From NCBI GenBank assembly GCA_036362985.1, contig JAYGXS010000002.1:87991272-88055271 (forward strand): 64,000 bases of DNA. Direction: 5' to 3'. How positions within the stretch are numbered: the first letter of the stretch is position 1; the number at the start of each line of letters is the position of its first letter. The notes beneath the pieces are model-generated. The model was not told the origin of the DNA, ran no database searches, and saw only the letters and a program-made list of their open reading frames with translations. The position numbers were made by a program, and so were the translations under genes. This document shows, piece by piece, positions 1,711 through 52,510 of the stretch. Origin of the DNA: Ligula intestinalis. Taxonomy: Eukaryota; Platyhelminthes; Cestoda; Diphyllobothriidea; Diphyllobothriidae.

Positions 1711-4700
1711 CTTGCGAAATAAAACAGTGGTTGAATAAACAAAATTAAAAGGATGAAAGAGCAGCTGTTTTCTATTTAAAAGTCACTTCTGCCCACTTTA
1801 GAGTTATTAAACGCTTAAACCTGCTTATATCCTTCTTCATTATGACAACGTAGTATATAGTCACAGGAAAATTATGCAACGTCTGAATTAACGATCTATT
1901 CATATAATCCTCTAATTATTCAAAATTTGCCTATTAAGTGCAGTGTTTGTCCTAAAATGATGAAAAATCCTTGGTAACTCTTAGTCATTGTATTCATAAT
2001 AAGGTTTTTCTAGAGTGACTTATAGAAAAGAACCGGTAATTAGTTATTCATCTTACTAATTTTTAATGTATGAGCTGCTGGGATGAACCTTAACTTATTT
2101 TGATAATTTGAAGTTGCCGTATTTATTCTTAAATAATATGTTATGTTTGGTACGTGCAAGACGGACATAGCTCTACGAATCGCATATGAAACTGACTAAG
2201 AGCAATCCAGATAATCTTGAATTCTTCAGGTCTACATAACTTGTTTAAGTAAGCCTCACACAATCATTGAAAAACTTTGATAGGGAAATATTTGGCGGTT
2301 ATTTTTTTTCTAATAATTGCGATACTTGAGCTTTTTGTTAATGCATTCTATATATCTGTAAACTTTACTTGATAGACACAGCAAACAGACCAGCGAAGAC
2401 CGACCTAGCCAGTTCTGGCTAATTCGGCGTGATAAACAATCCATTCACCAATTAAAATCCTGACTGATTTGAAGTTGCACTCCAATCTGGTGCACAGTGA
2501 GCAGTTTTCAGTGAAAAGCGTTTAACAAAATACCCAGCAATGTTTACTTATTCAGATACAGCCCAGAGGAGGTGAGCAGGTATATTTTACTGGTCAGAAT
2601 AAACTATGACTAGTCAACTTAAATTCACCTCTCAGTTATTCCAGGTCTGACTGTTTCATGTCATCATATGGGGACGATGACTTGCTTATGCAACAATATT
2701 TTATTTATCCAAAAACATTTTGGCTATTCAGTACCAGTTGCCATGTGAACGCCTGAGCTGAGAGTAACCTAAACCCTTAGAATGAGATGAAAAGGCCGAA
2801 TGGATCAATAAACACCAATCTCATCTAACCTTAACAGTGTACATGCCTGCTAGAAAACTGGAAGTTAATCAGTTATTTTTGTAGGAAGTAGGACTTATAT
2901 ATAGCCAAATGTTATTATGTGCAAATATTCGAGGTCCAGATATAATATTGCTTTTATCCAACCCAGAAGAGGAAGAAGAAGATGGGACAGCTCCTGAAAC
3001 CAAATTATTTTGATGCCAACATTTAAAAAACATTCTCGCTTTCATCGTCAGAGCGTACGTCTATGGTTCTGCTGGCATCGAATGAGTGTTTCTTGCCGCT
3101 AGCCTCATGCAATAGCTGTGCCTGATACCCGCGCGTTGATCGATTGATGGCAGCTGTTTGAATTGTTCACGTTCTAGCGGGCCCCTCCTTAAAACAGCCA
3201 ACAGCAATTGATCGATGCAATCGATCGGCGCGTGGGCATCACGCCCGGCTATTGCACGAGGCTAGTGGCAAGACACACTCATTCGACGCCAACAAAAGAA
3301 TAGACGTACGCTCTGGAAATGAAAGTGAGAATGTTTTCGAAATGTCAGCACAAATATAATTTGGTCTCTGGAATTGCCCCATCTTCTTCGTCCTCTTCCG
3401 GGAATTATGGAAGCAATAGCCAGATGTCAATGTGTGACGCTTCGTGAGTTTGATTTGGTTACTGTTTCACAGTAATATGTGCATTTTATTTAGCTGACCT
3501 ACGTTAGTCAATTACTTTTTCTACACGCATGTCTAGGCCTTTTGGTCTTTGGCTTTACAAATCGGCTTAACACAGCAATAAAAGCATGAGTTTTACAAGC
3601 AACTTCTACAAAATTGTTGTTTGTTAGTATTGCACAAATAAAAATGTTTGTGTTCGCACATATAATTAGTCTGAAACCGCGCATTATTACAGGTTATCAA
3701 TTAAGTCTGTGTGTTAAGCCAATGAATGCTTGGATTTTGGACATTTTGGGTGTCGCACATGGCACTGTAAATGACTTCAGATTTACCTCCTGCATACCAT
3801 CGCAGCCTTAAGGCCGCTGTAGCATTTGCTAGGCATAGTGGACACTTTAAATTTCGATGAAAACCACCTTACACTATTGTTCACCAAAAATGCTCTGACC
3901 GAATCTTGGAGGTTAAGTGAGGAGGCGTCTTTTAGCAGAGTATACTTACATATACAGCCCTAAGTAATTAAGACCGTCATTTTACATCCCCACAGCCAAC
4001 GGGAGTGTTTCTGATGACATCACTTATGTGTAACTTTTTGTTTTGAGAAAAATCCTTCAGAGGCAAGTAAGCAGTTTTTAATGAGCTACGACAGTCGATC
4101 GAAATGGTAATGGTTATCAGTAACAGTATACGACTCTTTTTACGTGCGGAGATTAAAAAATAAATGTTGCGTTTGCGCCAAATGGCGATGCAAGCACGTG
4201 ATGGAAAATTTTGCAACGTTATGCATGGAAGTATTGGTGCAATGAGCGTTTTAGTTAGGATCGTTTTTCCTTAACAATACTGGTGTAACCAAATAAGTGA
4301 CTATGGTAAATACATCTGTTATTTCTCAACTTATAAAACTATAAATATTGTACATCGTTCTATGATATGCGTCATTTATCTTTACAAAAACCTTAGGGGC
4401 GGGTACCACCAAGAACCTTCATGCTGGGTCCTCAGTCAAAAATATGCCTTTTTTACATTTTACCGTAAAAGAGCGAATCCAGTATCGCCATTTCTGCCTC
4501 ATTAGGCATCATCGGCTGGATATACGCTACTCAACTGTAGTAGCGGAAATTGCTGCCACCCTCGAGTTTCGAACCCGCGTCTCTCCAGTCAGAGGCAAAC
4601 GCCCTACCCAAAGACACTGGACATCAAAAACCAGGGTGGGTTTACTCTGGATCTGATCGGGGTACGCCTATGTACTAAGGTATAATCCCGATCAACAACC

Positions 4701-7700
4701 GTCAAGGCTTCGGGTCCGCTAGCTCGATGATTAGGGCGTTCGCCTCTGACCGGAGAGACACGGGTTCAAAGCTCTAGGATGCGGCAATTTTCGCTGTTAC
4801 ACTTGAGTAGAGTATATTCAGCTGACGACGACTAATGTGGCAGAAATGGCCATTCAGGATTCTCTGTCTTGCGGTAAACTGTCCAAAAAATAACAAATAT
4901 GTTACCACAACTTAGTTAGTAACATTATAATTAGCCATGTGCAAGGTTCGGGGGTTCCCAAAGACACTGGATATCAAAAATCAGGGTGAGTATGCTTTAA
5001 ATCTGATCAGTGTACGCATATATGTCATTCTGCTCATACAATATTGCTCAAAATATACCTAAAGTTTTCCCTAATTTAAAAGATATTTCTCTTAATGAAC
5101 CACCAGATGGTCGTAATTTTGTTAATAAAATTTTATAGGCCATTTATGTTGTCACCTCAGAAAAAGATATTCCGTTCCGGCTTTCACTAGGAATATGAAG
5201 TCTACTGTTGATAGCCTATTTTACATATAATACAAAAAGTTTAAAGGTTTCAAACTGCCGCATGCCTGTGCAGGTGATTTTCAGCATAAGAATACTATGG
5301 GACATAATTATATCGCATTTATCTCAAAAAATGTTTTCGATATTTTAAAAAAAATGTATCAAGCATTGGAATTTAGTATAATTTAGTGCAAAACAACATA
5401 AAAGCATTTTCTGTTTGCATTTTTTTATAACATAAATCGTTGGTGGGAAGTGTCTTTTTGTAAGTTTAGAACAAATAAATGGGTTTTGTTTGGTCCAATT
5501 ATATTGAAGACCTTCCTAAAATTCTGAGACATTGGAATTTAATTTATAAAATGCCTTCCATATGGCAGACGAGTGTCCAATGTGGGCATTTGGTTCGCAG
5601 TCATGATTTGCAGGTGGCTGAGGCGATATCTGATAAACAGGAGACGCATTTCTGCAGGTGCTGGCATTTACCCCCCAAAACGTGGGAAAGGTCGCCATAT
5701 TTATAAAAGCAAGGCACAGCTACACATGTGGCTTTCAACAAAAAGCATTCTAAGAGAGATAGAGAGCAGATAGGTTAAAAAAAGTATTTTATTCGCCTAG
5801 TCGTTTTGATTCGCACTCAAGCTAAATCCTGGAATGCGTCTTTTACCTTACGCCGGAAAAATGGTTTGAGTTATCCCCGAGGTAATTCTGTTATTCTGAT
5901 TGCTAGTTCTTACTATAATTTCCCCTGCAGAAAAAAACAGCTATGGGATTAATACAAGAACGGACAGGAGATTTATGTGTAGGCTTGTCATCCTTTGAAA
6001 TGTTGCATAAGTACTTGATTTATCCGCTAAGGTGCTGATCACTGTTAGTGCGTTGCTAAAGTCATTGAAGAGGTTGGTCGTAAGTACAGATTCAAAATCT
6101 TACAAGGATGAACGTTCAGGTTACTCTGTTAATTTGTTTCTTATAATCTGCCAAAAGAACATGAAGATGGCAGAGCGGTGATTTTAAAATACCTTGGAAT
6201 TGCCTCTGTCATTAAGGTTTCTACGTACGTTTGAAATTATTTTTGTAAACTTCATTTTCATAAAAGTTTAAATTGAAAAGAACCACAAGCATCTTAAATG
6301 AGAAAGTTGAAATGGATTTCAGGGGCCTCCAACCTCTATTCATTAGGACTGACCCTGAGCTTCCAGCTGAATTTTGTACTGCCATTTAAAGTTTCCGAAT
6401 TCCTTTAACAAACTAGTATGTGTTTGTGAGATGTTGGGGTCTGGGCAAAATGCTAAAAAACAGATTCCTTTTGAAGATTTCCGCCGAAATTCGTCGGTAA
6501 TTACTTTCTTTGCAATCATTTTATGATGAATTTACAAACAGCTTGCGGTCAGACAACAGAATTCTTTCATCTATTTGTTTAAATTGTTTGTGGGCCTTTG
6601 GTCTTCAAATATTTAGAAAACTAGGCAGAAGTCCAGCTTTTAATCAGACCATAATTAATGCTGAATTCTCCCTGATTATACGATGCCTTTTTTAACGAAA
6701 GATTCTGTTTAAGTAAAACTGGAAATCGATAGCCTGTTTTCTTAGAATACTAAACTGGACTCCTCGCAGCTGGGTCAAGTAGTGACAGAATACGGGCAAA
6801 GCACGTGCCTAAGCCTATTAGCTAGTACCTGGGCTATTATTATGGTAAATAACAAAATCAATAAAATCGTTTTATTCCTCCTACTTTGGCAAAGCGACAG
6901 AAAATGCTATCGTAGGTACTTACATTAAAACTTTCGCACTCAATGACAATCAGATCTCCATTCGAGTTTGCTGTAACAATCGACCGATTTGTGGGATCAA
7001 ATTGAACCTGGTTTGTTACAACTCCACGATTTAGGGGCACTGGTATAGGCGTTGACGGGCAGTTGTCCTTGCTGGCTTGCCGAAGGTCCCAAATGTAGAC
7101 GCAGCCGCTAGAATCACATGAAACGATCCTTGTGCAGTCACTAGCAAAACTTGCGTGGTTTACGGCTGCCTTGTAGTGGTCCAGTCGCCTTTCGCACAGA
7201 GCCTTTGAATATGCAGGAACTGAGTGTTATAATGAGCATATTGGATCAAGAAAAGCTGACCTAAACAAATCCGAAAATTAGAAGTCCTTCCGACTTCAAA
7301 AAGTTCTATCTGTTTTTCTATATTTCAGTTGGCAAGGGCTGGCATGTCAAACTTAAATGGCATTTATTAATAAGCTACATTTAATGGGAGATAAGATATA
7401 TTAAGTTTGCCTCTCCCTCTCAAGGTAATGCCTTTCAAATTGAGGCGCCGAATTAAACCAAAGGCAGTTATCTTTCTCGGCTGAGCTTCTGAAAATAGTA
7501 CAAAACGCACCACTTACGATAAAGAAGGGAACTTCACAGATGTTTGAAGTTTGTATTTTCCTACGACCCGTCAGCAGCAAAGATTCCTTACTGAAAGCCA
7601 ACATGCTTGTAAAAGCATACTCTGTAGAGAGCAGGTGGAAGTTCCCGGGTTACGAAGCCACCCTCCACGGTCAAAATTTTCAGACTGTCTTAAGTTAGCT

Positions 7701-10700
7701 TTTTGACCGGCTGCTACAGTTATCTGTGTGCTCTATAAGTAAAAGTTGGTTTTTTTCCACAGAGTGTGCAAACGCCGACTTGGAACGCTCGGTCATCCCT
7801 TCAAAACCCTGCTCGAAGTTTCCTTACCTGGTTTTTGTGCAGCTTCGGTTATTTCAGTTTAAATACGGGTGCCGTATGAAATTTGACAGACTACAGTAAA
7901 CTGCTCACCTGTGTCCAGTTGGCCCCTCGACCGCCTGAATTTGTCCCGATTGCCGCTTGCCTTGAGCAAGACAAAAACTCAAAGTCATGCCTTGTTCGCT
8001 ACGTACGGATAGGTGCACCAAGTGGTAATTAATTAAACTAGGTTTACTTTACTCATGATCATTGAGAGAGCTCTTTGAAGTGACATATTGCTTTGCCGCC
8101 CTCATTTCTTAGACATATTTGTCAGTCAAGAACGCACACTGTCGGCGAGCTATGAGAGACTTCAAATTCCCTAACTGTGTAAATATCTCCTCTTTATCGA
8201 CTCAATCGTAGGACCAGGAGCTCAGCTGAACAGGATTTTATTTTGGCGTTTAAATCATTTTCTCCGCTTACAATAATCGGCAGTCGCATGTTAACCACAA
8301 GGAAGTTCCATAGAAAGTTAATTAAGTACCTCATTAAACATGGATATGTGCGACAGTACGATCAGTAATTACGGAGGAAATTTGAAATATTACTATTTGT
8401 AGATGTTTCCCTGTGTAAATTATAAATTCTGGAAGAAAGGTGTAATATTATAATCGGCAACACGCATCTCTAGAGATGTGTTGCAGATAATTGAAGGTGG
8501 ATCCATCCATTTAACTGATTAGTGAGACAAATATCCTAAGCTCCCAGAATGGGTTATTTTGGAACATAATATTTTAGTGGTATGCATCTGTCATACTCTG
8601 CTTCTCAGCGTTACAAAATATTCTGTCAATTGGGATAATGGGGATGTCAGGCATATCTAGCTTGTTAAGCACAAGTTGACAGCAGAGAGGCGGTCAGTTT
8701 CTTACACGTTCAGGTTTCTGGTAAATCACCTCGTAGTGTTCGAAGTCACATTAATGTCCTTCTAAATGACATCCGGCTTGACTGACGACCCTGCCAGAAA
8801 ACTGCATAAGACCAATTATACCTGCAAGGACTGTTCGCGGTGGACCTCATGTTATAAAATTGGTGAGAAATGTTCATCTGTCGTCCATATTTAGATCACC
8901 AAGCGATGCAAACATTCGAGGAAAGAAAGGTTAGTCCTTTGTCCGCTTTCATACTTATAAGTGTCCAAACGACATTTGACATTTGACTTCTTCGCCTGTG
9001 TCTGTGCAGAGTTCCTAGCAAGTAAATTTGCACTCCCCGCACAGAGGCAACTTGCTCGCCAAAACCACTGATAGGGCAGGCGAAAAGGAGGACGGCTGTA
9101 AAGTCATATTTCCATATGCTCCACTTAGTGCAAAATATTAGAGGCTAGTCCTCTCACTCAGATATGGTTGCAGTGTAGGAAACACCGTCTTTCTGTGCTT
9201 AGTTTATTCCAGGGTAAGCTGAGCCCGTATTAGGCAGAAGAGATCTGGAATGGTAGGAGGCCTGAGCATTTGCGTTTGTCCTACATCAACTGTCTAGGGA
9301 CTGCCCATAACGTGTAGAGGGCCTAAGTAGTATGTTTAAAACAGCTGTAACTGTTGAAACCATGGCAATTTATGGTATCACCGTCAAATCCTGTCCTTTG
9401 GGATCCTCAAGGAGGAACACAGTGAGAAGGGCGTAACTTTAGAGTCCATCCGGAGTAGGGTTTTATTGTGTGCAAAGCCTGGAGGTAGCAGTTGCCGATG
9501 GTTGATCAGGCTAGACCCTGACTGTAACACCATCACGCTGAGTCGATGCGATATCTAGGGTTGGAGGAAGGAGTCTAGGGGTCTAATCGGACACACCCGC
9601 TCACCTACAAAATAGTTAGCCACTGGCCACTCCCAAACTAACCATAGCGCTCGGCCGGCAATGGCCGTCAAGAATTCGCTGACAGTCAGCCAAAGGCTGC
9701 TCCCTCGTGTTAACTGCACAACCACCATCATAAGGGCCAATCTGCACGCATCTACTGGTCAGCACTCCCCCGCACAGGGGGCAATGTACTCGCCAAAACT
9801 ACTGAAACGGCAAACCCCGGTGTCTTACACGCTCACCTCAGGCGATAAATAAAAATGGTAGTAAACTCATATTCCCATATACTCGGATTTTTGCTTTGTC
9901 CTCGGCTACACTCACAGTTGTAGCATATAGCAATGTTAGTTGATTATGGAGCAGATTGCTCTCCTGTAAGACAGAAGGCGTCGCCTAAAACCTCAAGCTA
10001 GAGTTAGATAATGCAGTAGGCCAAAAGGCAGCCTGAAATTGGCAAATGGCACCATGTGGTCTAGTAGAACTTCAGTTATTACTTAATGATGTTTTGTTGA
10101 CCGACAAGATGACACACTCTGGTGGATAGAGTTGAGAGGGAGCAAACCAACTAAAGCCCTGATGTACTCCGGACCTCAAGCACGTAGTTACTTGGAATAA
10201 CATCAACCCAGGTTCAACCTCCCTGCAGGGATCGAGAGGATATGAGTAGACGTTCTGTAAAGTCCAAGCTAGAGCTAAATACTGTAGTAAGCCTATAGGT
10301 AGTGCACAGATGGTGAAACTCGAGGTGATTGGTGGGATTTTAACCCGCGTAGTAGAGAAGGCCTTTACTGGAAGCCAACCCTCTAGCCACTAAGCTGCAA
10401 ACACCCCACTTCATGCCCTGCATTTAATCACACTTGTGTCGATATTACCTGTCCAACTTTACCGCTCGTATGAAATCCACCAATACGGAACAGGAAGCTG
10501 ACTACCCACGCAGGATTTCCTAAGCAATCATCTAGAATGCACCAAAATGACTACTAGGTTGACTTAATTATTAGGAGGTTTGGCATATTTGCTTTATTTG
10601 AGCTGACCCAATTGTGAAAAACTCGAGGCCATTATTTAACAATCCTTTATTTAATTCATAAGCTAATTGTTTTACCTCATATAGATTAGGACTGAATGTT

Positions 10701-13700
10701 GTGTGCCGATTTGTTAAAAAGCATGCATAGGTCATACTACAAATTTACTACTACTGGGCTTAGTAAGCATAATTACTAGCATTAGCACTTTAGCATAGGC
10801 AGGTATTCCTAGCGGCAGTATCATTGTCCTTGTAGTCCGAGCATAGTATAAACGGACACAACCTAATAAATATAGTTGAAAGGGCGAAAACCAAGGCAAG
10901 TTCTGTTGTGTTCAGAGCTCAATATACGTAATAACTTGGAATAGTTAAAACTCACCTTCACTCTCCTGTTAAAATCAAGGTGGTAGGAGCCCCAATGTTG
11001 GCTTTACTCAGCGTCACCACTGAAAAATGTTAGCTTCAGTGTTAGTTACGGTACTACCAACGCGCAGCTACATTACTAGCTTGTAGTGGTAGAAATAGGA
11101 TGAGTCGTATCTTTTTTGGCCTCCTTGAGCCCGTCTTGGCGCTTACTGAAAGTGAGTGAGGGAAGATAGTACGGTAGTACCCGCGCAAAGTCAACTGTCA
11201 CTTAAGACTAAGTTAGGCGGTTTTTCTGGTTTGCATTCGAGAAAGCGGACAATTCTAGATCTCATCTGGTCTTCTTGACCCATGGTGAATGTTAAGAGTG
11301 CAGTAGGCGCTAACCACGTTCTATAGCACTTTAAACTATCCCCTGTACGCAGTTACTATTACTGTACAAACCTGTTGGTGCATATGGTGGACTAAATCGA
11401 AACCGATGGTCAAATAATCAGCAAGCTCGAGCACACTTTGAATGAGCGTGTGCCTGCAAGAATACGGCTCATCCATAATAAGTCCATTTACGACAGAACC
11501 ATATATTAGCGTGTTGGGAAATTGCTACTTGACAGGTTTGGTTGGACTGCAAGCATTGTTACCAGGATTCCTCAACAGGACCTGATGGGAAATGCCTCAA
11601 ATGGCATATGCAAGTAACTCAAGACTCTTTGTTATCCTCTCACCATGAAAGCTGGTGTTGCGTACGTGTTTGTGTGGAGACCACCACTATTGGTCATTTG
11701 CGGCTTTCGAGAGAATCTCAGGTTGGCAAAGAGTAAATGACAAAGGCTACCTGAAATTGCATATTTCAAAAGCTACCTACTGATAATTTGATAGTAGGTC
11801 GGATTGCTTTTAATCAACCCATTCATGTACTCACGGATCGAATGTCCGTCTGCCATATAATTCTGATGAGGGAGAAGGTCACAGTCAAATGTGCCATAAA
11901 ATCAGTAATGCCTAATCCACGCATACGGTCCATTTTGTAAACTTATTAATCGATCCAATTTATATTTTAAAAAACGTAAATTGAGCATGCAATCGTCCGC
12001 AGATAAAGGGATTTCACCATTCTTTCTTCTAAAATGACAATATTTATTTCAAAATATGAATATGCGTATTATGTAATTACCGTTCTCGTGTCCCACAGAC
12101 CAATTGATTTATCAGCGGATGCCGTCACCAGTATGCGACCATCGGGTACAAAACGAGCCGAATTTACTGAGGCCGTGTGGCCCCGGAGGACCATTTGACA
12201 GGCCGATTTGTGTACTTCCGCTGACGTAGTGGACGCCGACATACGCTCTGGATCACAGAGACGAACCAAGTGGTCGAGACCAGCAGTTACGAAGCAGTTG
12301 CCAGCCCAGTGCCAATCAATGCTCCACACGGCTCCGCTGTGCTCTTGACTCAGTGACTGTATTCGCGTCTCGGGGTTCACTTCAGCGTTTGTGCACAAGG
12401 ACCAAAACTGCAATGATAAAGCAGAAAGGCAGCAAGAAGCCACAATCAGAAGTCTGCCAGCCAAAACTGGTATGCTTTTTTCTCAGATAGCAGCGGTTAG
12501 CTAGCGTAGGTAAGTCTTCCTTTTGGAGAAAGTAATCCATAGATTGTTCCAAGAAAAAGTTTTGTTACTTGTGTAAGCACACACATACTGAGGCCTTTCT
12601 ACCTGGATGAACCTGGCAGTAAAATTCCCGGTCTTTTCATACTTTGAAACACTGTGAATACAAAATGGATTCATATCAACGTTTAAAGTGGGACGGCATT
12701 AATATTCCTTAGTTTGGCTTGGAAGTAACTAAAGCAGTTTATAAATTTTCTTTGCTTAACGGATTATTTTCCAGGAGTTGGAAATGGATGCAAATAATTT
12801 CTACCACTTATGATTACAGATGTGCACTTACCCACTCGAAGCAACTTGCTCGGATCACTGGCTATTAATCAATCTTAAGGAAATTGTTCCTTAAGAAATA
12901 GCTTCACCTCCATATGACTTATTGAATTCTACTATGTATTTGATAGCTTTTGGTTCTCCAACGGGAAAACATGATGGTAAATTAACCGACGTTTTTACCA
13001 CAGTCACTGACAGTATATACACCAGTTGGGAATTGACATGAGACGATAAGAAATTTGAAGATAATTGTAAGACGATGAACGCATGATTCAAGTATCCATT
13101 AATTTGCATGTATTGCATGGGTTTGATCACCGAACGTCGAAAATCTGGCTGACTGATGACGGATAAGAAACCAGAAATTTTCGGTTAAGTCTGCCTAGTT
13201 TGCAGGCTGCCGAGTCTTCTGCTCTTACAGAATGACGATCATCTACAAGGAGCTAGTATTTAATAACGCTGGGTTCCAGAAGATCCCTTAGCGAGCATAC
13301 GCCTGCTTTCAATAAATTCTCGGGGGCATTCCCATTTTCACTAACGATAAGAAATTTCTTCAATATCTTTTGACCCTCTGTGGGCTTAGAGAAGGAATTA
13401 ACAATAAATGGATTTTGGGTTCTCATATTTTGGAGTACGAGGATGAAAATGATCCATTTTGCGAGGTCACGGGCTGCCATAGCAACCTTAGTAAACGAAA
13501 GCACCTTAAAATGGGGCTGGCAAGAGCAAACATATGAAAATTTATTTGGAGTGCAAGGTCTATGTCAATTTCTGAGTGTGAGACATTTGGTTTATGTGAA
13601 CGTATATCACATAAGGGCGTTCCGACAAACAAGACACTTTAAATTGGTTTATATCTTGCAAAGTTCTGAAACACTAAACTTCCAAGAATGCTGGACACTT

Positions 13701-29339: not shown

Positions 29340-29490
29340 ACTCGCAGGAAACGACCTCGTCGAGCAATAATTAGAGCGTTAAACTTCTAAACAACAGGTT
29401 GTTAGTTCGATCCTTAAGTGTTGCAAAACTATGGGGTTGGATATCGCAGGCCAATCATGCCTTATATGCCAGAGCTTATCACTTCCTCCT
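29340..29490 (+). mobile_element. Degraded SINE with decayed hammerhead region (copy 4)
   Basis: A tRNA-like head (GAGCAATAATTAGAGCG, box B-like GTTAGTTCGATCC near 29400-29413) resembles the one at 52378. Where the ribozyme should be, the 14-base stem II block TGCCTTATATGCCA at 29458-29471 is recognisable, while the core has become CCAATCA and GAAA has become GAGC. The copy is inactive. Confidence 0.45.
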
Positions 29491-33611: not shown

Positions 33612-33757
33612 TTGTTTGATAGAAAATATTTTTTGGGAAACAGGAACAAACTTTATTTCAAATGTTTGACGCTGGCACACCAGGTCGTCTTCGGACGTAA
33701 GGGGAATGTGTGAAGAGCCGTGCGCATTTTTAACGGGCCAAAAATTCGATAATGATT
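33612..33757 (+). repeat. Inverted terminal repeat, left
   Basis: Pairs with 34085-34234 in reverse complement over about 145 bases, with roughly one difference in five. Confidence 0.75.
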
Positions 33758-34084
33758 CATCATCAGTGGTCGGTGGTTGGCGCTTTTTTCAAGTTTTTTT
33801 TCAGATTGATATGCATTGACTCCAAATCAACGTGCCTGTTGATGCATGATTCGTCAGAATTAATGGCCTCAAAAAATTCTAAGCTTTTCTTATATGGGCA
33901 GGAACCTACTATAAGGGTTTGGTCCCATGCAAACTTGTGCTTACTTTCAAGTGAATGCATGGCGACTTCGGACAGCTGGTCGCGCCTCTTTACTGCTAAT
34001 TGATGTTCATGTATACGTGTAGATGCGGACCTTCCTGTTTGTCCGCAGTAAATTGCATCGCATTCGCCGCAAGGTTGACGAATT

Positions 34085-34234
34085 ATTAGCGATTTTTGGG
34101 TCGTTTAAAAATGCGCACTGCTCTCCACACATTTCCCTCATGCCCGAAGACGACCTTGTGAGTCAACGCCGAAAATTTACAATAAAGTTTGCTCCCGTTT
34201 CCCAAAGAATCTTTTCTATCAATCACGATTAATT
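34085..34234 (-). repeat. Inverted terminal repeat, right
   Basis: Reverse complement of 33612-33757. The overlapping plus-strand frame of 69 codons is a shadow of the repeat. Confidence 0.75.
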
Positions 34235-34599: not shown

Positions 34600-34735
34600 A
34601 TCGATTGACCCAATTGTGAAAAATTCGCGGCCTCGGTGGGACTCGAACCCACACAGTAAGGAAGGCTTTTGCGCAGCCAACGCTCTACCATTGGCCTACG
34701 AGGCTCACCGTGCAATATGAATTTAACCACACTTT
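34600..34735 (-). mobile_element. tRNA-derived SINE, family A (5'-truncated)
   Basis: Minus strand: GATTKAAATTCA-like spacer, then the tRNA-like head GCCTCGTAGGCCAATGGTAG with box B GGTTCGAGTCCCACC, then CGCGAATTTTTCACAATTGG. The anticodon-loop region GGCT-GCGCAAA-AGCC would put GCA in the anticodon. The SINE joins directly to an endonuclease fragment at about 34736. Confidence 0.7.
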
Positions 34736-35231: not shown

Positions 35232-36524
35232 TCAGGAATCCCCGCCGGAATCCAAACTGGGAGTAGTTGGGAGACGGAGAAAAGCCGCGACCTCGACCGG
35301 CTTGAGCCACAGGTCCGTGGGAGTGAGGAGGGTGCCTGGCCGAGAACTGCAGGCGAACAGATGACGGCAGTCATGCGGCGAGACGCCGCAGTCGGGACAG
35401 CAGTCGGGTATGGATGGGTCGAGCCGGTGCTGGTACTGCCGAAGGAGCATACAGTAACCACTGCGTAGCTGCGCCAGAGTACAGCGAGTAACCCTCGGGA
35501 GATGTCGTTCCGAGGCCGCGATCGGAGGCGGATAGCCACCCAAAAGGACCGGGGGACGGTAACCTCGTTTCTCCTCGACAACGACTCTCTGGTGGAGACG
35601 CTGGAAGCCTGTCTTGGTGGCAGAGCTATCAACAGGTAGATCCGCGAGAGACGAGGCAACAGCTTCCTTGTGGAGTGCTCGAATAGACGGCCGGACGTTG
35701 CGGCAGGGCTCGAAAGCGGTGCAACGGTGATGATTGGGATGGCCGGGTTGCGAACAACTCCACCAGAACTGCTGGCTAAGGAGAGTGTTGTGATTGGCGA
35801 CCGGTAGAACAGAAGCCTCCGCATGAAGATGATCTATAGGCGACATTTTATAGCAACCCGTGATCGTGCGGAGGGCAGCGTTTTGGGCTGACTGGAGGCG
35901 GCGGAGGCTGGAAGAGCTCATCGTAGGAGACCAGATTGATGCCGCATAAGTGAGGTGCGGCTTGGCCAGCGCCTTGAAAGCAGTCGACAGAGTCTCTTTC
36001 GCACAGCCCCAGGATGTGCCTGCTAGAGCCTTGAGGACCTTGGTGCAGCGGCTTACTTTGCTTGCGGTCTCCCTGGCATGGTCTGCGAACGTGAAGAGCG
36101 GATCAAAACGCACACCAAGGAGTTTGGGCTTGCGGACGAGCGGTAAGGACGCCCCATTGACGGTGATGACCGGGTGACGATTGAACTCCTTCGGATCAAG
36201 CGTAAAGACAGTTACGGACGACTTGGCTGCCGAGATCGTCATTCCGCGCTGGGTGAGGAAGTTTTCGACAACAGGCATGAACTCCGTGAGGAGCTGTGCA
36301 GCCTGATCGATGTCATGGTGCCGGCAGAAGAACGTAATATCGTCCGCATAGGATACCACTTGCACAGGTGCCCGGGGGAGTGGGAGCTCTCGCATGTAGA
36401 TGTTAAAGAGCGTCGGGCTGAGCACAGAGCCTTGAGGGACGCTACAGGACTGCTTACGGGGCTTGGAGAGAGCGCCCGGAAGAGGACACGATCGTGACGG
36501 CCACGGATGTAAGCCGCCAACCAT
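35232..36524 (-). pseudogene. RT C-terminal half (YADD onward) and zinc motif
   Basis: A frame of 430 codons: SVPQGSVLSPTLFNIYMREL, catalytic SYADDITFF, SAAKSSVTVFTLDP, LLGVRFDPLFTFADHA, then TGCYKMSPIDHLHAEASVLP and PDCGVSPHDCRHLFAC. It is the direct continuation of the frame at 36470-37860, but a one-base-type frameshift near 36470-36500 splits the two. The start codon is artificial. The zinc-like CxxC-H-H near the C-terminus recurs in the copy at 31495-32090. Confidence 0.75.
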
Positions 36525-37860
36525 CGGACCAGGCCAGTCGGGACGTTCAACGAGACCAAGTCCTGCAGGAGCTGATCGTGGCGGACGCAGTCAAAGGCTC
36601 GTGACAGGTCAATTGAGACTGCCACGGTCCGCGAAGCGGGCTTCTGTTGATTGAAGCCCTCGAGGATAGCGTCGCTGAGCTCGAAAAGCGCCGTTGTAGT
36701 TCCACGACCCGATCGGAAACCATGTTGGTGGCAAGATAGTTCCGCCACAGACGTCAGAATTGGGTGGATGAGCCGTTCCAGGATCTTCGCCAATGGACTG
36801 AGGAGGGCAATTGGACGATAAGAGGTCGCTAGGCAGGGGTCCTTACCCGCTTTGACCAGAGGGATGATGATCGACTGGCGCCAGCAATCAGGGATGATTG
36901 AAGTTCCCAGTGAAAGGTTGAAGAGGGCGGCAAGGTAGGCAGCCACCTTCGGGCCGATGTGGCGCACATGGATAGGCGCCAGACCATCTGGTCCTAAGGC
37001 TTTCGAAGCTCTCATTTTCTTGACGGCGGTGAGGATGGCATCAGCCGAAAAGGAAATATCTGGGGGCGGGGCTTTATGGAGGAGGCGAAGAAGGGGGCGT
37101 TGGCTTTTGGGACTGGGCGCCGAGCGGGGTGAGAACAGCTTGTTCATCTTCGCGGCGATCTTACCGTTGTTGGAAATGAACTTACCGTCCCCAAAGCTAA
37201 TAGACTGGTTTGATGTATCAGCCCGGGGTTTGGTCAGGTTGCGTAAAAGCTTCCAAGTGGCAGCTGAGTTGCCGCTGAAATTACAATCTGAAACTAGTTC
37301 ATGCCAGCGTTGGCGTTTGCCATCGTTGATAGTCTTAGTGATTAAGCCATTCAGTTCGCCAACGCGCGGGTCACTGGCATCACGCGCTCGTATTTCGTCT
37401 CTCTCTCGTTCCAGGCGGGAGGCTTCGGGCGGATAGTTTGGACGAAGAAAGGGAATGCGGCCGTTAGGGATGTGGTGACTTGCTGCTGCCAGGAGTAGTC
37501 GACGAAGGGCTCGCTCCGCCATGTGGACACAGGTGGGAGGCGGTAAGCCATCGATCTCGGCTTCGCATTCGGTCGTGAACGCTGCCCAATTGGCTTTCTT
37601 GAAATTAATGAAGTGCCGGTTGGGGGCCTTGATACGCTCGGCGGCGGTGGCCAATTCGAGCACAATGGGGAGGTGGTCGCTACCCAGGCTGATTTCCGTC
37701 TTCCACATGGTGGAGGCTACCAGACTGAGACTGGCGAGGGAAACATCGGGCGAGCTGGAGGCGCCGTTGGTCGGGAGCCGCGTTTGGCTGTTCTCGTTGA
37801 GAACGGCAAAGGGGGCGTGTTCTATTTCATCAGCCAGAGCTTCTCCACGGGGGCGTAGAA
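36470..37860 (-). pseudogene. Endonuclease C-terminus and RT N-terminal half
   Basis: Reads EALADEIEHAPFAVLNENSQ, LGSDHLPIVLELATA (the S-D-H motif closing the AP endonuclease), a linker, then RT blocks RASKALGPDGLAPIHVRHIG, CLATSYRPIALLSPLAKILE, CHQHGFRSGRGTTTALFEL and AVSIDLSRAFDCVRHDQLL. The frame then drifts into out-of-frame sequence past 36500. Upstream of the endonuclease C-terminus the first half of the domain is missing. Confidence 0.75.
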
Positions 37861-38135
37861 ACACCTGGCGGCACGGGACAGCTGGGACATGCGAAGTCGG
37901 GCGACCAATCGGCAGTTTTGGCGAGGCCACTTCAGCGGAGATGGCAGCAGCCATTGCAGGAGCCGCAACGTGCAGACCAGTCGCAGCGGCCCAGGCGGAC
38001 TCGGCAGAACGAGCAGTACCAGAAAGGTCCGGGGTTGGCCTCAATTCCGGCAGTGAGGAGGAGGAGTCGGAGCAGCGTGGCCGGGAGTGACGGAGACGCG
38101 TTTGCCGTGGTTCCCTGCAAATGTGGTATACACAC
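37830..38135 (-). pseudogene. N-terminus: 2A-like motif and PHD-like zinc finger
   Basis: LRLLLLTAGIEANPGP (about 38026-38070) resembles the 2A-like sequences known at the N-terminus of some animal non-LTR elements. The consensus has D where G stands before I-E. Then WYCSFC, RCDWSARCGSCNGCCHLR, a stop at about 37932 where a Cys is expected, and SGLAKTADWSPDFACPSC. Cys/His spacing suggests a PHD-type finger with one ligand codon lost. Confidence 0.6.
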
Positions 38136-38159
38136 ACTAGTTGGTATTCTTTGTCCACA

Positions 38160-39680
38160 ATTTTTCCAGATTTATTGTGTTTTCCCTGTTAAGACTGAAG
38201 CAAAGGCAATTATTGAAATCAATATACGAGGATTCTTGAAATTCCATGCCGATGTAGGCATCGGTTTGCTTATTACTGTGCGTAAAGTATTCGTATGCTC
38301 ATTTTGTCTCTTTTCCGCATGTGGTTGCCAATGCCACCTTGCTTATCTTCCTTTGTCGTTGCCGATGAAAAAGCGCTCTAAACGTGATATGTGTGTTAAT
38401 ATTCTGACCAAAAATATGCAGGGTAATTGCCTCTATTCAAACAACTGGATTAATTTGCTACATTTTAACTCAACCCATCCGATATCCATTAAATAATATG
38501 AAAATCATTGAACGTCACTAATCCAATCAGCCGCTATTTTCGTGAACTGTCTTAAAAATTTTCGGTACAGACGGATATCCAATAGCTGCTCGGATTTTTA
38601 TTTGAAATTTTCACCCAGAGCTCACTGGCTCAGAAATTAACCAAAAGACAGCACTAACAAGAGAAGTCATTTAAGTGCCTTTACTGACAGTCATGTTAAA
38701 GTGCGTTTTCGGGCTCTGATATAATTTATTTGACTTTTGGAGTACCAGGACTCAGCCTTCACGACTTGTTTGGGCCTTCAGTCAGCCGTAGCCACGATGG
38801 TTAACCAGCAAGTAGACTAATAGGCAAGTTCACTGACGCCGAGAATTTATCATACTTCTATTTCAATAGTGTTAGTGGTCATACTGTGTTATCTTAACCT
38901 AGTCATTTGTATCTGATCTCCTCGCTCTTCATGCCAACTGTATCGACTGCTAAGCTACTACGTTCTTCTCAATAAAACTGTGCCTTACGGAATATGTGCA
39001 AAGCCAATGTTTGCTCTGCCTCCTATACACTGTACGAACTTTAATGATCGTGTTTGCAGTCGCCTCTACCGCATCTATGGTCCTAGGCTACGCGGCCTTA
39101 TCACGTTCTTCGTCATATCGACCTGAAATCCGACTGCTGACGACTGTTGTGGGTTCCTCTGTTTTTGTCACAGGAAGGGCACATCATTGTCGTATCTTCG
39201 GTTCTTGGGGATGTTCTCGTAACTCCGCGATCGCCTCCTCGTGTGGCCCTTCGGATAAAGATATAATTCTGGATAGCCCCCTGGCTTGCCACCAACATTC
39301 ACAGTAGTATGCTGGTCCTATTTCCCACGAGCAACAGTTTTTCTCCTAAAAAACCACAAATGACACTCCATTTTTTTAATTGTGAGCCATGCCTTAGGAA
39401 TTTTTTCCACTGCCTGCTCTTTTTGCTCAGTTACATCTGCTGGCTCGTGTTAACTGACATCACCACATGTGATTGTATTGCTTGGAACAAGTGAGTCGTT
39501 GCCTACAATTAAGTCAACGACCTTCTTTGAAATGTTTGGCTGTGCCGATTCATTTCCTAACTACTGTGTACCAATAGGGAGTTCAAAGGCGTTTGCCCAT
39601 ATTTCCTCAATAAACTTGACTTGGCATATGTCAACTCCTAACAACCAAGGTTAGCCTAGTAGTCCGTCAGGTGAATGCTA
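38160..39680. other. No supported gene
   Basis: AT-rich region after the CR1-like element. Several frames of 60-100 codons (for example 38996-39307) have no motif. The frame at 37918-38496 is partly a shadow of the element. Confidence 0.5.
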
Positions 39681-39689
39681 CATGATTAC

Positions 39690-39930
39690 TCGGGAAATCC
39701 TGCCTGGCAGTCAGTTTACTGCGTCCGTATTGGTGGATTCCATATGAGCGGTACGTTGGGCGGGTAAACTCGATCCAAGTGTGATTAAATTCACGGCGCA
39801 CGGTGAGCATCGTAGCTCAATGCTAGAACATTGGCTGCGCCTAAGCCTTCCCTGTTGTGTAGGTTCAATTCCCACCAAGGCCGCAAATTTTTCACAATTG
39901 GGTCAGTCGAATTACTGAAATCCTTCAAAC
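39690..39930 (+). mobile_element. tRNA-derived SINE, family A
   Basis: Body TCGGGAAATCCTGC and TTGGTGGATTCCATATGAGC, spacer AAGTGTGATTAAATTCACGG, then a tRNA-like head with CGTAGCTCAATGCTAGAACA and box B GGTTCAATTCCCACC, then AATTTTTCACAATTGGGTCA. The head lies 3' of the body. Confidence 0.7.
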
Positions 39931-41669: not shown

Positions 41670-41880
41670 TGGTAATGGTGGATTCCATATAATCATTAGG
41701 TTGGGCGGGTAAAATCGATCCAAGTGTGATTAAATTCACGGCTGGTGGTGAGCCTCGTAGCTCAATGGTAGAGCGTTGGCTGCGCAAAAGCCTTCCCTAC
41801 TGTGTGGATTCGATTCCCACCGAGACCGCGATTTTCTCACGATTGGGTCAACTGAATTGAGCAAATTTGCCAAACTATTC
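41670..41880 (+). mobile_element. tRNA-derived SINE, family A (best-preserved head)
   Basis: The head reads GCCTCGTAGCTCAATGGTAG (box A) and GATTCGATTCCCACCGAG (box B). Both RNA polymerase III boxes look intact, with an anticodon arm GGCT-GCGCAAA-AGCC. The acceptor arm GCCTCG pairs with CGAGAC imperfectly, so I call it tRNA-like rather than a functional tRNA. Confidence 0.72.
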
Positions 41881-44756: not shown

Positions 44757-45665
44757 TTCGTATTGGCAAACAATTGTTTTCGGTCATTCATCATCAGGCC
44801 GGTACATGATATGGGGGTAAAAATTGTCAGTTAATTGCAGCGTTTATATAATCGTCAGGTTGGGGGAGGGGGGAGAAAAGGACATTAGTAGGTAGGTGAG
44901 GGTAATTAAACAGCTGGGGGTTCCCTCGTCTTCTGAATGCGGGCGCCTGCGCGGTTAGGACGTTGGTTGCGATGCGCAGAGAAAACAGGGGGGAATATTC
45001 CGACGGTCATCGGGCTGAGGTCTGTATGTCAGTCGCGTAGCTTGCGCTTAAATATTCTCCGTAGATTCATTTTTCTTGTTTTCGGACGATGTGGCTTCAG
45101 TAGGCGTGGGATTTTCGCGTGCAGTCGGCCAAGGGAGGCAGATTGCTTGTACCAGGGTATTTTGACAGCATAAACTGGGTTTTGCTAACCTGATTGCCAC
45201 TGCCTCTGCTGTGGCTAACACCCGTTTGCGCAGGCCTTTGGAGTAAGGTGTCGGCGTGTGGTATATGACCCGAAGGGCTTCTCTCGCGTCCACTTGGTGG
45301 TTCTTATCAATTAGGCGGGCGAGGATTGAGCTTGAGATCGGTCTTTTTTCTCCTTTGCTGAGCCAAGCCGGTACGTGCTCGCGTATTCTCTTCTCTAGGC
45401 GTCACGTTGTTCGGCCAATATATCCCGATCCACAGGAACAGGCGAAAGAATTGATGCATATCGATGTGGCCTGAAACGGTAGTCTTTACGTCCCATTCGT
45501 AGGAAGGGAGTGTTAGTAAAGAGCACGCGCAAGTTTGCTGTCGGGAAGGAATTCATGACTGCTGTCCTCAGGCGTCCTCTTACCAGTTCACTCGTTGCGT
45601 CTCCCATAAACGGCAGTCTTATGAATGATTAATGACCGAAAACAGTTGTTTGCCAATACGACTTT
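44757..45665 (-). mobile_element. Penelope-like copy with inverted flanks
   Basis: Minus strand: RGRLRTAVMNSFPTANLRVL and FTNTPFLRMGRKDYRF, then after a shift the nuclease FACSCGSGYIGRTT at about 45410-45445, one stop, RLEKRIREHVPAWLSKGEKR, ILARLIDKNHQVDAREALR and AIRLAKPSLCCQNTLVQ, LPWPT. The order is that of the CxCG-YIGRT Penelope-like nuclease, as at 14256-15150. Inverted repeats of about 35 bases lie outside it (44759-44792 and 45622-45660). The RT is absent. Confidence 0.78.
44761..44802 (-). ncRNA. Hammerhead ribozyme-like motif in Penelope-like flank
   Basis: Minus strand: GGC (stem I), CTGATGA, a nine-base stem II region TGAATGACC, GAAA, palindrome ACAATTGTT (stem III, closing A-U), T, then GCC pairing with GGC. 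All core bases are present. Stem II is imperfect and stem I is short as read. Penelope-like elements are known to carry minimal hammerheads of this kind. A worn second copy lies in the other flank near 45617-45655. Confidence 0.45.
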
Positions 45666-45734: not shown

Positions 45735-46020
45735 AGTTGACCCAATTGTGAAAAATTCGCGGCCTCGCTGGCAGACGAACTCTCATGACAGAAGGGACTT
45801 TTGCGCAGCCAACACTCTACAATTGAGTTACGGTGCTCAGTGTGCGCCGTGAATTTAATCGCACTTGGACCGATTATATTCGCCCCAACTTCCTGCCTAC
45901 ATGGAATCCACCATTATGGAACAGCAAGTTGATTGCCCCAAGCAGGATTTACTAAGCACTCATCTAGAATCCCCCAGAATGACTACTTGACTCACTTTCT
46001 TGTTAGAGGGGTTTGACAGA
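45735..46020 (-). mobile_element. tRNA-derived SINE, family A (left half of inverted pair)
   Basis: Minus strand: GGCAAATCTGTCAAACCCC, the body with TTCTAGATGAGTGCTTAG and AATGGTGGATTCCATG, then the tRNA-like head with box B worn to AGTTCGTCTGCC. It abuts an oppositely oriented copy at 46021. Confidence 0.68.
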
Positions 46021-46290
46021 TTTGCCTAGTACTCATTCTGGTGGATTCTCGATGATGGCTCAGGAAATCCTGCTGTTTTCTAATGGTGGAGTCCATACGG
46101 GCAGTAATTTGGTTGGGTGAAATCGATCCAAAATCGGATTAAATTCACAGCGCACGATGAGCCTCGCAGCTCAACGGTAGAGCGTTGGCTGCGCAAAAGC
46201 CTTCGCTGCTCTGTGTGGGTTCGACTCCGCGAGTTTTTTTCACAAATGGGTCAAGCAAATCTGCCAAACCCCCTAACAATTTAGGTTCGT
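46021..46290 (+). mobile_element. tRNA-derived SINE, family A (right half of inverted pair)
   Basis: Plus strand: TCTCGATGATGGCTCAGG, AATGGTGGAGTCCATACGG, spacer, head CGCAGCTCAACGGTAGAGCG with box B GGTTCGACTCC, then TTTTTTTCACAAATGGGTCA and AGCAAATCTGCCAAACCCC. With the preceding copy it makes a long head-to-head palindrome. Confidence 0.68.
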
Positions 46291-48900: not shown

Positions 48901-49146
48901 AACTGGGCAAGTAGACTCAGGTGTTAATTTGGCCCGGTTTACTTGTACACTAGAGGATAGAGACCACTCCGAGGCGCCGCAAATTGCTGCACAATCAAGT
49001 TAAAACATTGCATCGAATGCTAGAAAAGTCCCAAGTCTATTTCTACATAGGATCTTTGGAGGAAAGTGTATTCGGCTATACAGTTGGTTCTATGAAAAGT
49101 GCTTGATTCGAAATATTAGGAAAGATAAAACTTGAAAACAGTAGTT

Positions 49147-49687: not shown

Positions 49688-50244
49688 GACTACCTTTGCC
49701 GATGACTTGTATGGTCGCATAAAGAACATAGGGGAATAGGGACACCCCGCTAACCTACAATAAGTAGCCCTGTGATGAAGTTCGGGAAGAGAAAATATTC
49801 CTGCCTCTTAGGCGAATATACAAGTTATCCTTACCGAAGTTTCTAGTGGTGACAACTTTTAAGATTAAAATAACATACTATCTGTAGGTTAAGTAGTGCT
49901 CCTGAGTAAGTACACAACAAAGCCTATATCCATTGGAAATTTTTATGAAAACTACATAGTACTTATGAAGTCAAGTTTTGCGAGCGTACGCTTTCGATTT
50001 TTCATGACCAGTCCTTTAAAGTAAGGTACGAAAGGGTAGAGTAACAAAATTGTAAACATAAATTCAATGGTATATGAGAAAGTATGATTGTGCTTAAACT
50101 AAAGGCCTACAACTTGTAGATTTAAAAGCTCACACACAATTGTAACGCTTTGAAAGCCTAAGTTTACTTTTCCTTCCAGTATCCACTTTTGAGGAGACGT
50201 AATGGGCAACCAAATGCGTACGAGAGATAAATGTTTGCCTAATT

Positions 50245-50450
50245 TTTCTAAAAAATATGCTTGAATTTATAAGGACCTCGAAAAGAAGCAGTAGCACTAA
50301 TTCATTATCGAGTGTGACTTTACCGGTGATTGAGCACCTATGTATTCCAAAGCTGGAATCTTGGCATGCCTAATATATCTTGCGATTATGCCGTATTGTA
50401 GTTAATATTACAAGCTCACTTAAATATTCCTTCCATTCATGAGCTCGGTC
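50245..50450 (+). repeat. Dispersed repeat, copy 2 (copy at 46530)
   Basis: Matches 46530-46715 in order and orientation with small insertions. Confidence 0.6.
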
Positions 50451-52355
50451 ACTGGCTGTAACTATAACAGTGTTGAGTGCAAGCACAGTAAGCTACTTTC
50501 AGCCAGCTTAAAGTTGTCCGTTCTCCATTTTGCTGTTGTGAGCACTCCATAATTAACTGTACTTCACTGGGGAAGCTCATTACTCTGAAACTCAAGAAGT
50601 GTGTTGGCCATTCGCGGAGAATTTAATTCTTTTTTAATATGAAGTTATACCAGAGGTGATGTAGCGTCATCGCAAGTGCCGCATGGATTCCTGGCGCCAG
50701 GGAGGGGTAAATTATTCCCGAGCCTGCTCGGCTTGAAACCGAAACTCTGCAGTTTTAGTCATAGATGATCCATGTTCTTGGGGGTATTCTAAAGGATCGT
50801 TAGCTTAGTGCAGACTTAAGACTGACAGGAACCCGATAAAAGCATATTTCACCAACCGATGTTCCAAATCAGCTTCTTTCCAATCAACAACTGCTTGCCT
50901 CGCCCTGGTGGACGCATAACAGAGACTGGCGCCTGCACTCGTTTGTAATAAGGCAGCGATACGCAACACTTACCACATTCACTCACCTTAATAGCAACAA
51001 AATGGCAATACTAAGGGAGGTGAAATCGGGCGTAGTTACTGAACGTTAAGCAGACTGGCAAGACATGCCCCACACACGCGATCTGATCCACGCAGCAGTT
51101 GCAAAGTATTCATGAGGGTAGCTCGGATCCACATTCTGCATTATTATCTTCCCAGGTTCTAGGGTCAAGATAAAACTGCCTGAGTGATACGCGGAGATAA
51201 AATGCCAGCCACCAGATATAGTTGCAAGTGACTTCAACAGGTTTCTATTATCTTTTAACCGAAAGCATTACCTTGAACTTTTTGTTTAATTTTACGATCA
51301 AACCCCTGCATAACGGAATCAACCACTCAAATCCAAGAAACAGATAACTGTAGAACGTAAGCTAATAGACTGGGGATGGTTTCTCAACTATACTTCGTCT
51401 TTGTACGGTGCTGTTTCTACCTTGAAGATTCTGCTAACGTTTAGTTTTCAAGAAGTTTTATTGTTTCATAAAGCAAGTGCCGTAGCACCACGAGCAACGC
51501 ATGCTAAGATTTGAGTAAAAAGTACTGATATGCGTTTAATGAACTGTGTGGCACAGAACATGTTCCAGCAAAAAAAGCATGTGGGCTTTAATATGGAATA
51601 TTTCCGATGAGATATTTTTGGTACGTAAAAAGATATATCAAAGCAATAACATTTCGCATTTTGTTGGATTATCTAAAAGATCCTTATAAATTCGGTCGCA
51701 CAACATGCTATTTTTTGCAGAATACTGGATCACCATGAATTATAGTGGTAAAACGTTTATGGTTGTTTACGAAATTTTTACAACAATTCGGTGTGTAGGC
51801 TCTATATAAACGCACCTATGAATATATTTGTATTACTTTTACAGCTATTTTTCACCAAGCGGTGCACCTTAAGAGACGGCTTATAAACATGTAACAATTA
51901 AATAACGCATGCATTCCTGCAAAGATCTGACAAAGTTATACAGCTTATGTTTCTAAAACCGAACCTATTCCCCGACTATCAAGAAAATCCACTTTCGAAG
52001 ATAAAAAGCCTGAGGAATGAACCCTTGGCGCACTTTTTCCGGTGCAACTAGTCGTTTTTTTTAAAACTCCAGATTTTGTCAAAATATGAGAGTTTTATCA
52101 AAACAAAAAGTCCCTACATTTTAAAATAAAGAACTAATATAATGTCGTGAGATGAAACTCCGTGCTTAACTGTTTTGCAGTCCTACTTTAGTAATTGTTT
52201 CGCGTCTAACGCATGTTTTACGAATTCGGTCGCTGCTGTGTAGGTCTTTATGTCTACCCCATAACCTTAGAGGTAGTGCTTATGTAGTGATATACCATTA
52301 GTAAGAATAAGCCCGGTTTCTTGAGGACCTTACACAAGGCTCCTTATGGATAAGT
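50451..52355. other. No supported gene
   Basis: AT-rich. A possible worn tRNA-like block near 50690-50830 is too weak to call. No coding motif. Confidence 0.45.
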
Positions 52356-52359
52356 CAAC

Positions 52360-52510
52360 GAGCCCATGATACAGTAGTTACAACGACAGACTTCTAACCA
52401 ACAAGGTCGCGAGTTTGAGCCCCGGGAGTCGCTACTCGCGGAATTGGGTATGGCTGGCTGATGACGGCTCATAAGCCAGAAATGGCCCATCCAGTCTCCC
52501 TTTGTCTAAA
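52360..52510 (+). mobile_element. tRNA-derived SINE with hammerhead motif (copy 5, best preserved)
   Basis: The tRNA-like head (GTTACAACGACAGACTTC, box B-like GCGAGTTTGAGCCCC near 52407-52422) is followed by a spacer and the ribozyme-like fold at 52452-52496. Head and fold match the copies at 13100 and 29340 and, more distantly, 4470 and 4700. Confidence 0.62.
52452..52496 (+). ncRNA. Hammerhead ribozyme-like motif
   Basis: Stem I GGCTGG, core CTGATGA (52458-52464), stem II C-GGCT-CATA-AGCC-A, GAAA (52479-52482), TGGCCCA, T, then CCAGTC, which pairs with GGCTGG at all six positions (one G-U). Stem I here differs from ATCCAG/CTGGAT in the copy at 4477 yet still pairs: a compensatory pattern. 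The base at 16.1 is A instead of U, so this copy may be inactive. Confidence 0.58.

Follow-up and report, generated by a model that had tools for sequence, protein, structure and literature searches.

A 64,000-nucleotide stretch of the genome of the tapeworm Ligula intestinalis (contig JAYGXS010000002.1, positions 87,991,272 to 88,055,271; hereafter the window) holds copies A to E of a short repeat family in which a predicted type I hammerhead ribozyme can be preceded by a box-like head. On balance we favour the reading that this family, which resembles a short interspersed nuclear element (SINE), was spread by a Penelope-type reverse transcriptase as head-to-head pairs. Its copies and their parts lie in the window as follows.

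4477–4521, minus strand: hammerhead A, ATCCAG CCGATGA TGCCTAATGAGGCA GAAA TGGCGA T A CTGGAT
4816–4860, plus strand: hammerhead B, ATTCAG CTGACGA CGACTAATGTGGCA GAAA TGGCCA T T CAGGAT
4560–4609, minus strand: head of A, in which GGTAGGGCGTTTGC and GGGTTCGAAACTC look by eye like an A and a B box
4720–4774, plus strand: head of B, likewise box-like by eye at TAGCTCGATGATTAGGGCG and GGGTTCAAAGCTC
4449–4890: head-to-head composite of A (minus arm) and B (plus arm), from self-comparison and profile matches
4957–5021, plus strand: truncated second tandem unit after B, a direct repeat of 4607–4671 (83%, period 350)
13147–13191, plus strand: hammerhead C, decayed, with nothing recognisable beyond the hammerhead stretch (profile match 13146–13198)
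29347–29444, plus strand: copy E, family head region, followed by a broken hammerhead at 29451–29475
52341–52503, plus strand: copy D, head region and hammerhead, the copy that best represents the abundant subfamily F4 in the window
52452–52496, plus strand: hammerhead D, GGCTGG CTGATGA CGGCTCATAAGCCA GAAA TGGCCCAT CCAGTC

We scored the hammerheads with a descriptor that covers the core letters, GAAA, U16.1-H17 and stems I–III, taking 40 first-order Markov sequences of window composition as background. A reached the window maximum of 21.5, B and D scored 20.0 and C 17.5. The Markov sequences contained on average 0.025 matches scoring at least 20 (highest 20.0) and 24 scoring at least 17; A, B and D hence stand out, whereas C alone equals background. 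The fourth of the top four window scores belongs to position 24057, which is unrelated to the family and also reached 20.0. The core CUGANGA/GAAA with stems I–III, open at stem I, is present in the window. A carries one core change (U4 to C) and pairs fully in stem I (6/6) and stem II (4/4); B has an intact core and damage in stems I and II, with 4.5 of 6 pairs in stem I (ATTCAG/CAGGAT). Stem I of C (GGCTGA/TAAGTC) likewise gives 4.5 of 6 and that of D 5.5 of 6, the latter requiring A rather than U at position 16.1; the core of E is not intact.

Fifteen of the 30 genome loci from the core-pattern search described below, and no window loci, went into a family profile; it matched D (E-value 1.2e-29), B (1.1e-12), C (1.5e-6), A (4.4e-5) and E (2.3e-4). 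A–E are members of a real, decayed repeat family, and the window copies are probably old because they are decayed. A first-pass annotation of this DNA had described one layout shared by A–D, two stem I versions that both pair, and a fifth, decayed copy. The shared layout and the family stand, with C indistinguishable from background by the descriptor alone; complete stem I pairing was seen in A and was imperfect in B, C and D as given above; and E indeed keeps head-like sequence beside its broken core. Its further claim of a tRNA-like head upstream each time failed: by eye, box-like letters precede A and B, are weaker at D and not recognisable at C, and none of these heads was called a tRNA.

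At E ≤ 1, Rfam 15 gave no hammerhead match anywhere in the window, nor did it match A–D at E ≤ 10 when these were searched as short stretches. We therefore turn to the 644-Mb assembly containing the window. Here the core pattern CTGANGA-N12-CAGAAATGGC, with 16 fixed bases, had 4168 exact matches (2064 + 2104), compared with 0 and 0 for its reversed control and a chance expectation of about 0.3 by our own arithmetic. A near pattern with 13 free bases gave 15 genome matches, i.e., variants one base longer; both stems were present in 5 of these 15 and in 0 of the 129 prokaryote and viral contig matches listed, which served as chance control. With the Rfam model Hammerhead_1 (RF00163), for which 73 of 92,101 candidates were scored, we found at least 31 scored matches in the genome, at least 22 of them above the gathering score, including the near-duplicates L133/L134 and L144/L145 (L numbers denote genome loci). 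The loci above the cut-off belong to the sister subfamilies F1 and F2, and no window copy is among them. Hammerhead_3 (RF00008) had no genome matches. The silence of Rfam on the window was considered as a refutation of the family and ruled out by these matches.

That an isolated match can be fortuitous is seen from C and from the unrelated position 24057, and the hammerheads might on that ground be taken for chance look-alikes. Set against the pattern and control counts, the Rfam matches above the cut-off and the stems of the near-pattern matches, this reading has practically no probability left; for the family, the genome counts refute a chance origin. The first-pass proposal of a SINE-like superfamily carrying a type I hammerhead is thus borne out by the 4168 cores, the Rfam matches in sister subfamilies and the paired, divergent stem I described below, and the type I covariance model gave a divided answer, silent on the window copies and positive at the genome loci. 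The locus pairs L133/L134, L144/L145 and L151/L152 are near-identical, lie mostly on small contigs and are perhaps uncollapsed haplotypes that double-count copies.

The copies fall into four subfamilies. F1, the best preserved of them, with the hammerhead TTTCAC CTGATGA GGCCCAAATAGGCC GAAA AGCT T C GTGAAA, has 49 exact cores in the genome and 0 in the control. F2 consists of L131 and L143, F3 of A, B and L161, and F4 of D and most of the 4168 core matches, as judged from 100 of them. For stem pairing we used 75 copies, i.e., A–D and 71 of the 75 genome loci, leaving out L134, L145, L152 and L197 as near-duplicates or second views of one place. Stem I was paired at 6/6 positions, with G-U counted, in 36 of the 75 copies and in 10 distinct versions; mean pairing was 4.93 of 6, compared with 3.40 ± 0.16 after swapping the 3′ strands across copies. 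At least five pairs formed in 25/25 F1 copies, a pairing that was partly selected because the F1 loci came from a model that itself scores pairing. That stem I differs between subfamilies and nevertheless pairs, as claimed earlier, agrees with these 10 fully paired versions. Covariation was analysed in an F4-type alignment of 34 rows, 32 of them distinct. Fourteen cells had changed on both sides, against 6.8 ± 2.3 in shuffles (2 of 500 reached 14), and the covariation score was high (reached by 2 of 500 shuffles). The number of pairs with double-sided changes, six, was not above shuffles (84/500), nor were further pair types (136/500).

The G10.1-C11.1 pair was found in 25/25 F1, 2/2 F2 and 0/29 F4 copies, F4 having C.A at this position in 20 copies and T-A in 6. 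Canonical hammerheads carry G-C at 10.1-11.1. With a C.A mismatch adjoining the core, the abundant F4 may not cleave. Palindromes are the most frequent form of stem III in F1 (AAGCTT, 21/25), F2 (ATACGTAT, 2/2) and F4 (ATGGCCAT, 20/29); viroid and newt hammerheads with a weak stem III act as dimers (PMC6155905). The F4 stretch could be a ribozyme no longer and be kept as a landing or recognition site of a reverse transcriptase, which we regard as a substantial, if minority, possibility. The predominance of C.A and the complete lack of G-C at 10.1-11.1 fit it, as do the 6/6 pairing of stem I in only 10 of 29 copies and the in vitro insertion by Penelope without need of cleavage (PMC11167929). 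On the other hand, U16.1 is kept in 25 of 29 copies, the palindromic stem III is kept as well, and so are the core and GAAA, both of which the search pattern demanded; moreover, most copies may just be old.

We next consider how the units are arranged. A unit is about 300–350 bp long, as seen from a window period of 350 (4607 to 4957) and from 325 and 308 in two tandem pairs. The repeat is therefore not a Penelope element itself, because such units are too small for a reverse transcriptase and a GIY-YIG endonuclease; no frame of at least 110 residues overlaps 4449–5021 or 52341–52503. The truncated unit at 4957–5021 ends near unit position 93–116, where partial F1 units end (16 matches, two of them from near-duplicate loci), and most remaining F1 3′ ends fall at unit position 322–336. 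A and B form an inverted repeat of 71.7% identity, with a comparable layout in L130, L136, L144 and L159. That they are two arms of one inverted composite points to a Penelope-type insertion.

Neighbour orientation was counted for profile matches of at least 40 bp spaced within 200 bp. The 30 F1 loci and the window gave 15 head-to-head pairs (one being the window pair), 18 tandem and 0 tail-to-tail pairs, and the 45 F4-type loci and the window 18, 13 and 4, respectively. The near-duplicates L144/L145 and L151/L152 and the same-place loci L196/L197 lower the head-to-head counts to 13 and 17, with the window pair in both, and L137 was counted twice among tandems through overlapping matches. In L136, L144 and L159, the arms of F1 head-to-head pairs each cover the hammerhead and reach the 3′ end. 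For flanking direct repeats we set a minimum of 8 bp and a distance of at most 20 bp from the outer profile ends, with swapped flanks as control; L134, L145, L152 and L160–L174 were left out for F1. Repeats of 8–12 bp flanked 9 of 13 head-to-head composites, the 13 being 12 F1 loci plus the window pair; among tandem elements the count was 0/4 and among single ones 2/13, and the background was 1.85% of 866 swapped flanks. They measure 12 bp in L159, 10 bp in L144, L146 and L154 and 9 bp in L135 and L142. With narrower flank windows and F4 loci included, 7 of 35 elements had direct repeats against a background of 2.1%.

Since F1 has no tail-to-tail neighbours and 9/13 of the composites carry 8–12-bp repeats against 1.9% by chance, the mirrored pair likely arrived in a single event. 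Independent insertions into a favoured spot in older copies would be an alternative that could draw on the four tail-to-tail pairs of the F4-type and on the lack of repeats around its head-to-head pairs; with no tail-to-tail pair in F1 and repeats enclosing the whole composite in 9 of 12 F1 loci, we consider it very improbable.

Two places in the window and a second repeat in the genome resemble parts of Penelope elements.

33613–34225: likely Penelope-like relic, with a GIY-YIG-like frame at 33763–34104 (minus strand) between inverted 150-bp repeats of 81% identity
44744–45675: second likely relic, with a GIY-YIG-like frame at 45048–45401 (minus strand, by eye) between short inverted repeats of 88% identity
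L176:960 and 1184, L187:1982 and 2085, L192:2214 and 2700, L196:1355: Penelope-like repeat with a hammerhead of its own

The inverted repeats of the second relic hold a hammerhead-like CTGATGA-TGAATGACC-GAAA at 44761–44803 (minus strand). The first has two relatives, proteins of Schistocephalus solidus and Dibothriocephalus latus. The Penelope-like repeat stands head-to-head in L176, L187 and L192, and its hammerhead equals that of F4 at 27 of 32 bases. Its stem I is paired at 5–6 of 6 positions, a 4-bp stem III (ACAG-UU-CUGU) is possible, and in frame it has M-K-A-N-K-P-E where F4 has M-T-A-N-K-P-E. L187 also carries GIY-YIG-like frames that by eye resemble the window relic.

Penelope-like elements are known to have inverted pseudo-long terminal repeats (pLTRs), most commonly head-to-head, and an optional 31-bp tail; several copies have target site duplications of 8–10 bp and one insertion has none (PMC3846280). 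The purified Penelope enzyme cuts and extends both target strands, starting inside the template; two start sites bound the tail, and the open reading frame (ORF) begins at stem II of the hammerhead (PMC11167929). The L. intestinalis family shares with these elements head-to-head inverted repeats, partial tandems, an optional tail and a minimal hammerhead (PMC3846280, PMC11167929), and its F1 flanking repeats of 8–12 bp compare with 8–10 bp there (PMC3846280). It differs in being too short to encode a reverse transcriptase or endonuclease and in having a box-like head. The Penelope hammerheads as such were known before (PMC11167929, PMC7761336).

The schistosome repeats Sm-alpha and Sj-alpha, with about 38,500 and 5,000 hammerhead candidates in two species and with Sm-alpha linked to tRNA-Gln-like sequences (PMC2770079), are likewise short, high-copy and equipped with a type I hammerhead (PMC2770079). 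The present family, likened to them by architecture, has a tapeworm host and a head that is not recognised as tRNA. Moreover, its subfamilies with differing stems I and III and its head-to-head composites with flanking repeats go unmentioned for Sm-alpha in the available text. The W-elements of S. mansoni share minimal hammerheads with very short stem III, one of them being Sm-alpha-like, but they are satellite-like and mirrored-pair insertion is unmentioned in that part of the source (PMC8490949). Metazoan retrozymes are 150–450-bp tandem repeats for which platyhelminths are named as hosts and Penelope elements are proposed as movers (PMC7229834). Our tandem units with type I hammerheads fall into the size range of these retrozymes, which lack long terminal repeats (LTRs); the polymerase-III-like head and the mirrored-pair insertions set the family apart. 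Hammerhead SINEs (Sm-alpha, Sj-alpha), retrozymes, Penelope hammerheads and platyhelminth retrozyme-like repeats are thus known already, and the present repeat adds a further family to the Sm-alpha-like SINEs and retrozymes; its mirrored composites go further. Among the listed titles and abstract beginnings of the open-licence literature we found no hammerhead SINE in tapeworms, no SINE moved by Penelope and no mirrored pair inserted in one event that would link Penelope machinery to a hammerhead repeat whose head is polymerase-III-like.

An ordinary metazoan retrozyme, in which tandem units are cut, circularised and copied by any reverse transcriptase and head-to-head pairs are a by-product, remains a somewhat unlikely explanation. 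Tandem units of 300–350 bp with type I hammerheads do fit the 150–450-bp repeats (PMC7229834); on the other side, no long tandem arrays were seen in the 3-kb loci, flanking repeats accompany head-to-head (9/13) and not tandem (0/4) units, and a polymerase-III-like head is not among the retrozyme features described in the available text of PMC7229834.

SINEs are usually tied to long interspersed nuclear elements (LINEs). An Sm-alpha-like SINE copied by a LINE is to be weighed as well; its inverted pairs would have arisen via L1-style twin priming, and the likeness to Penelope would be incidental. The window contains reverse transcriptase frames at 26772–28502, 36239–38188 and 35232–36590, and twin priming also gives head-to-head order. 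In L1-type inversions, however, the two parts are neighbouring pieces of a single RNA, whereas both arms here span the hammerhead to the 3′ end, and we consider this origin unlikely.

We propose, with qualification at every step, a Penelope-type route. The box-like head would drive transcription by RNA polymerase III, and the multimeric RNA would be cut by the hammerhead to unit RNA, which would perhaps then be circularised. A Penelope enzyme would bind the stretch 3′ of the hammerhead and cut both target strands, and copying would start internally at one of two preferred places. Each end of the cut target would prime one arm of a head-to-head pair, so that the 3′ ends would face outward and the truncated 5′ ends would meet at the centre of the composite. 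The SINE itself could have originated when a polymerase III head became linked to the hammerhead and start-of-ORF stretch of a Penelope element; it would thereby have acquired the Penelope end recognised by the enzyme. We preferred priming from both strands to self-priming because extension of both target strands is what the purified Penelope enzyme carries out (PMC11167929). One-event head-to-head pairs formed by self-priming on the antisense template, as palindromic junctions of rotifer Penelope were read by the authors of PMC3846280, are in our view improbable here. Taken as a whole, the proposal is tentative, and we lend it somewhat less than half our belief: a SINE class would depend on a Penelope-type reverse transcriptase and not on a LINE, with a polymerase III head fused to a Penelope hammerhead and ORF-start end; priming on the two target strands would set it down as a mirrored dimer in a single event, and it would have multiplied into the thousands.

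Several points weigh against Penelope-borne spread as mirrored pairs. The Rfam tRNA model (RF00005) at E ≤ 1 recognised no family head at A–E and had no head match in the 16 examined of the 75 genome loci. The stem I pairing of F1 is partly a product of the structure-scoring search; that of the 29 F4 loci alone was on average not above shuffles (526/2000), as is expected of copies decaying after insertion, and F4 may be catalytically dead. Transcription, cleavage and circles of the SINE are predicted steps, Penelope insertion in vitro proceeds without hammerhead cleavage, and the head-to-head pairs of rotifer Penelope have the self-priming explanation just mentioned. In several head-to-head pairs the arms overlap by 20–85 bp, which blurs the junctions, and some flanking repeats are A+T-rich. 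The window A/B pair has no flanking direct repeats (at least 8 bp, within 20 bp of its ends), and F4-type repeats were found at 0/13 head-to-head, 0/6 tandem and 1/48 single elements, against a background of 2.3%; we attribute this lack in F4-type elements to age. The one-event claim therefore rests on 12 F1 loci. As for the Penelope side, the second repeat is assigned to Penelope from its frame and layout. The GIY-YIG-like relic had no Pfam match at E ≤ 0.001 and none relevant at E ≤ 10, and of its relatives that of D. latus is named GIY-YIG, while that of S. solidus is named DDE_Tnp_1_7 in one source.

For animal hammerhead repeats, Penelope is a strong candidate mover without direct proof (PMC7229834). 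The family, with its thousands of copies, its mirrored pairs, the direct repeats beside them and 3′ ends that recur, offers testable evidence on the mover from insertion structure. If the proposal is true, SINEs gain a Penelope-type partner besides LINEs.

The window also contains the following features.

6858–7226 and 12069–12482, minus strand: exons of a THOC3-like WD40 gene
26772–28502 and 35232–38188: LINE reverse transcriptase frames (RVT_1), one open over 576 residues and one spread over overlapping frames
10415–10592, 34605–34734, 39727–39913, 41672–41858 and 45737–46254: another repeat family, from self-comparison

The exon at 12069–12482, compared with a D. latus protein, shows 92% identity at a query coverage of 83%, which fits a diphyllobothriid tapeworm or close kin as host; the two relatives of the GIY-YIG-like relic likewise make a tapeworm likely. 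Two members of the other repeat family have a head that passes as tRNA-like, in one case as tRNA-Cys, and 45737–46254 is an inverted pair. We had considered these tRNA-like matches (34628–34705 and 41751–41828) as heads of the hammerhead family and rejected them, as they belong to this other family, where no hammerhead with a descriptor score of 18.5 or more was seen. The inverted repeats 2946–3418 and 45737–46254 were likewise rejected as hammerhead family members, no place inside them reaching a descriptor score of 18.5. The former, which lacks a hammerhead, is an imperfect palindrome of 473 bp (75.8%) and may be a fold-back element. Outside the window, L143:829–976 matches many unrelated microRNA families below the cut-off on both strands and is probably one long hairpin.

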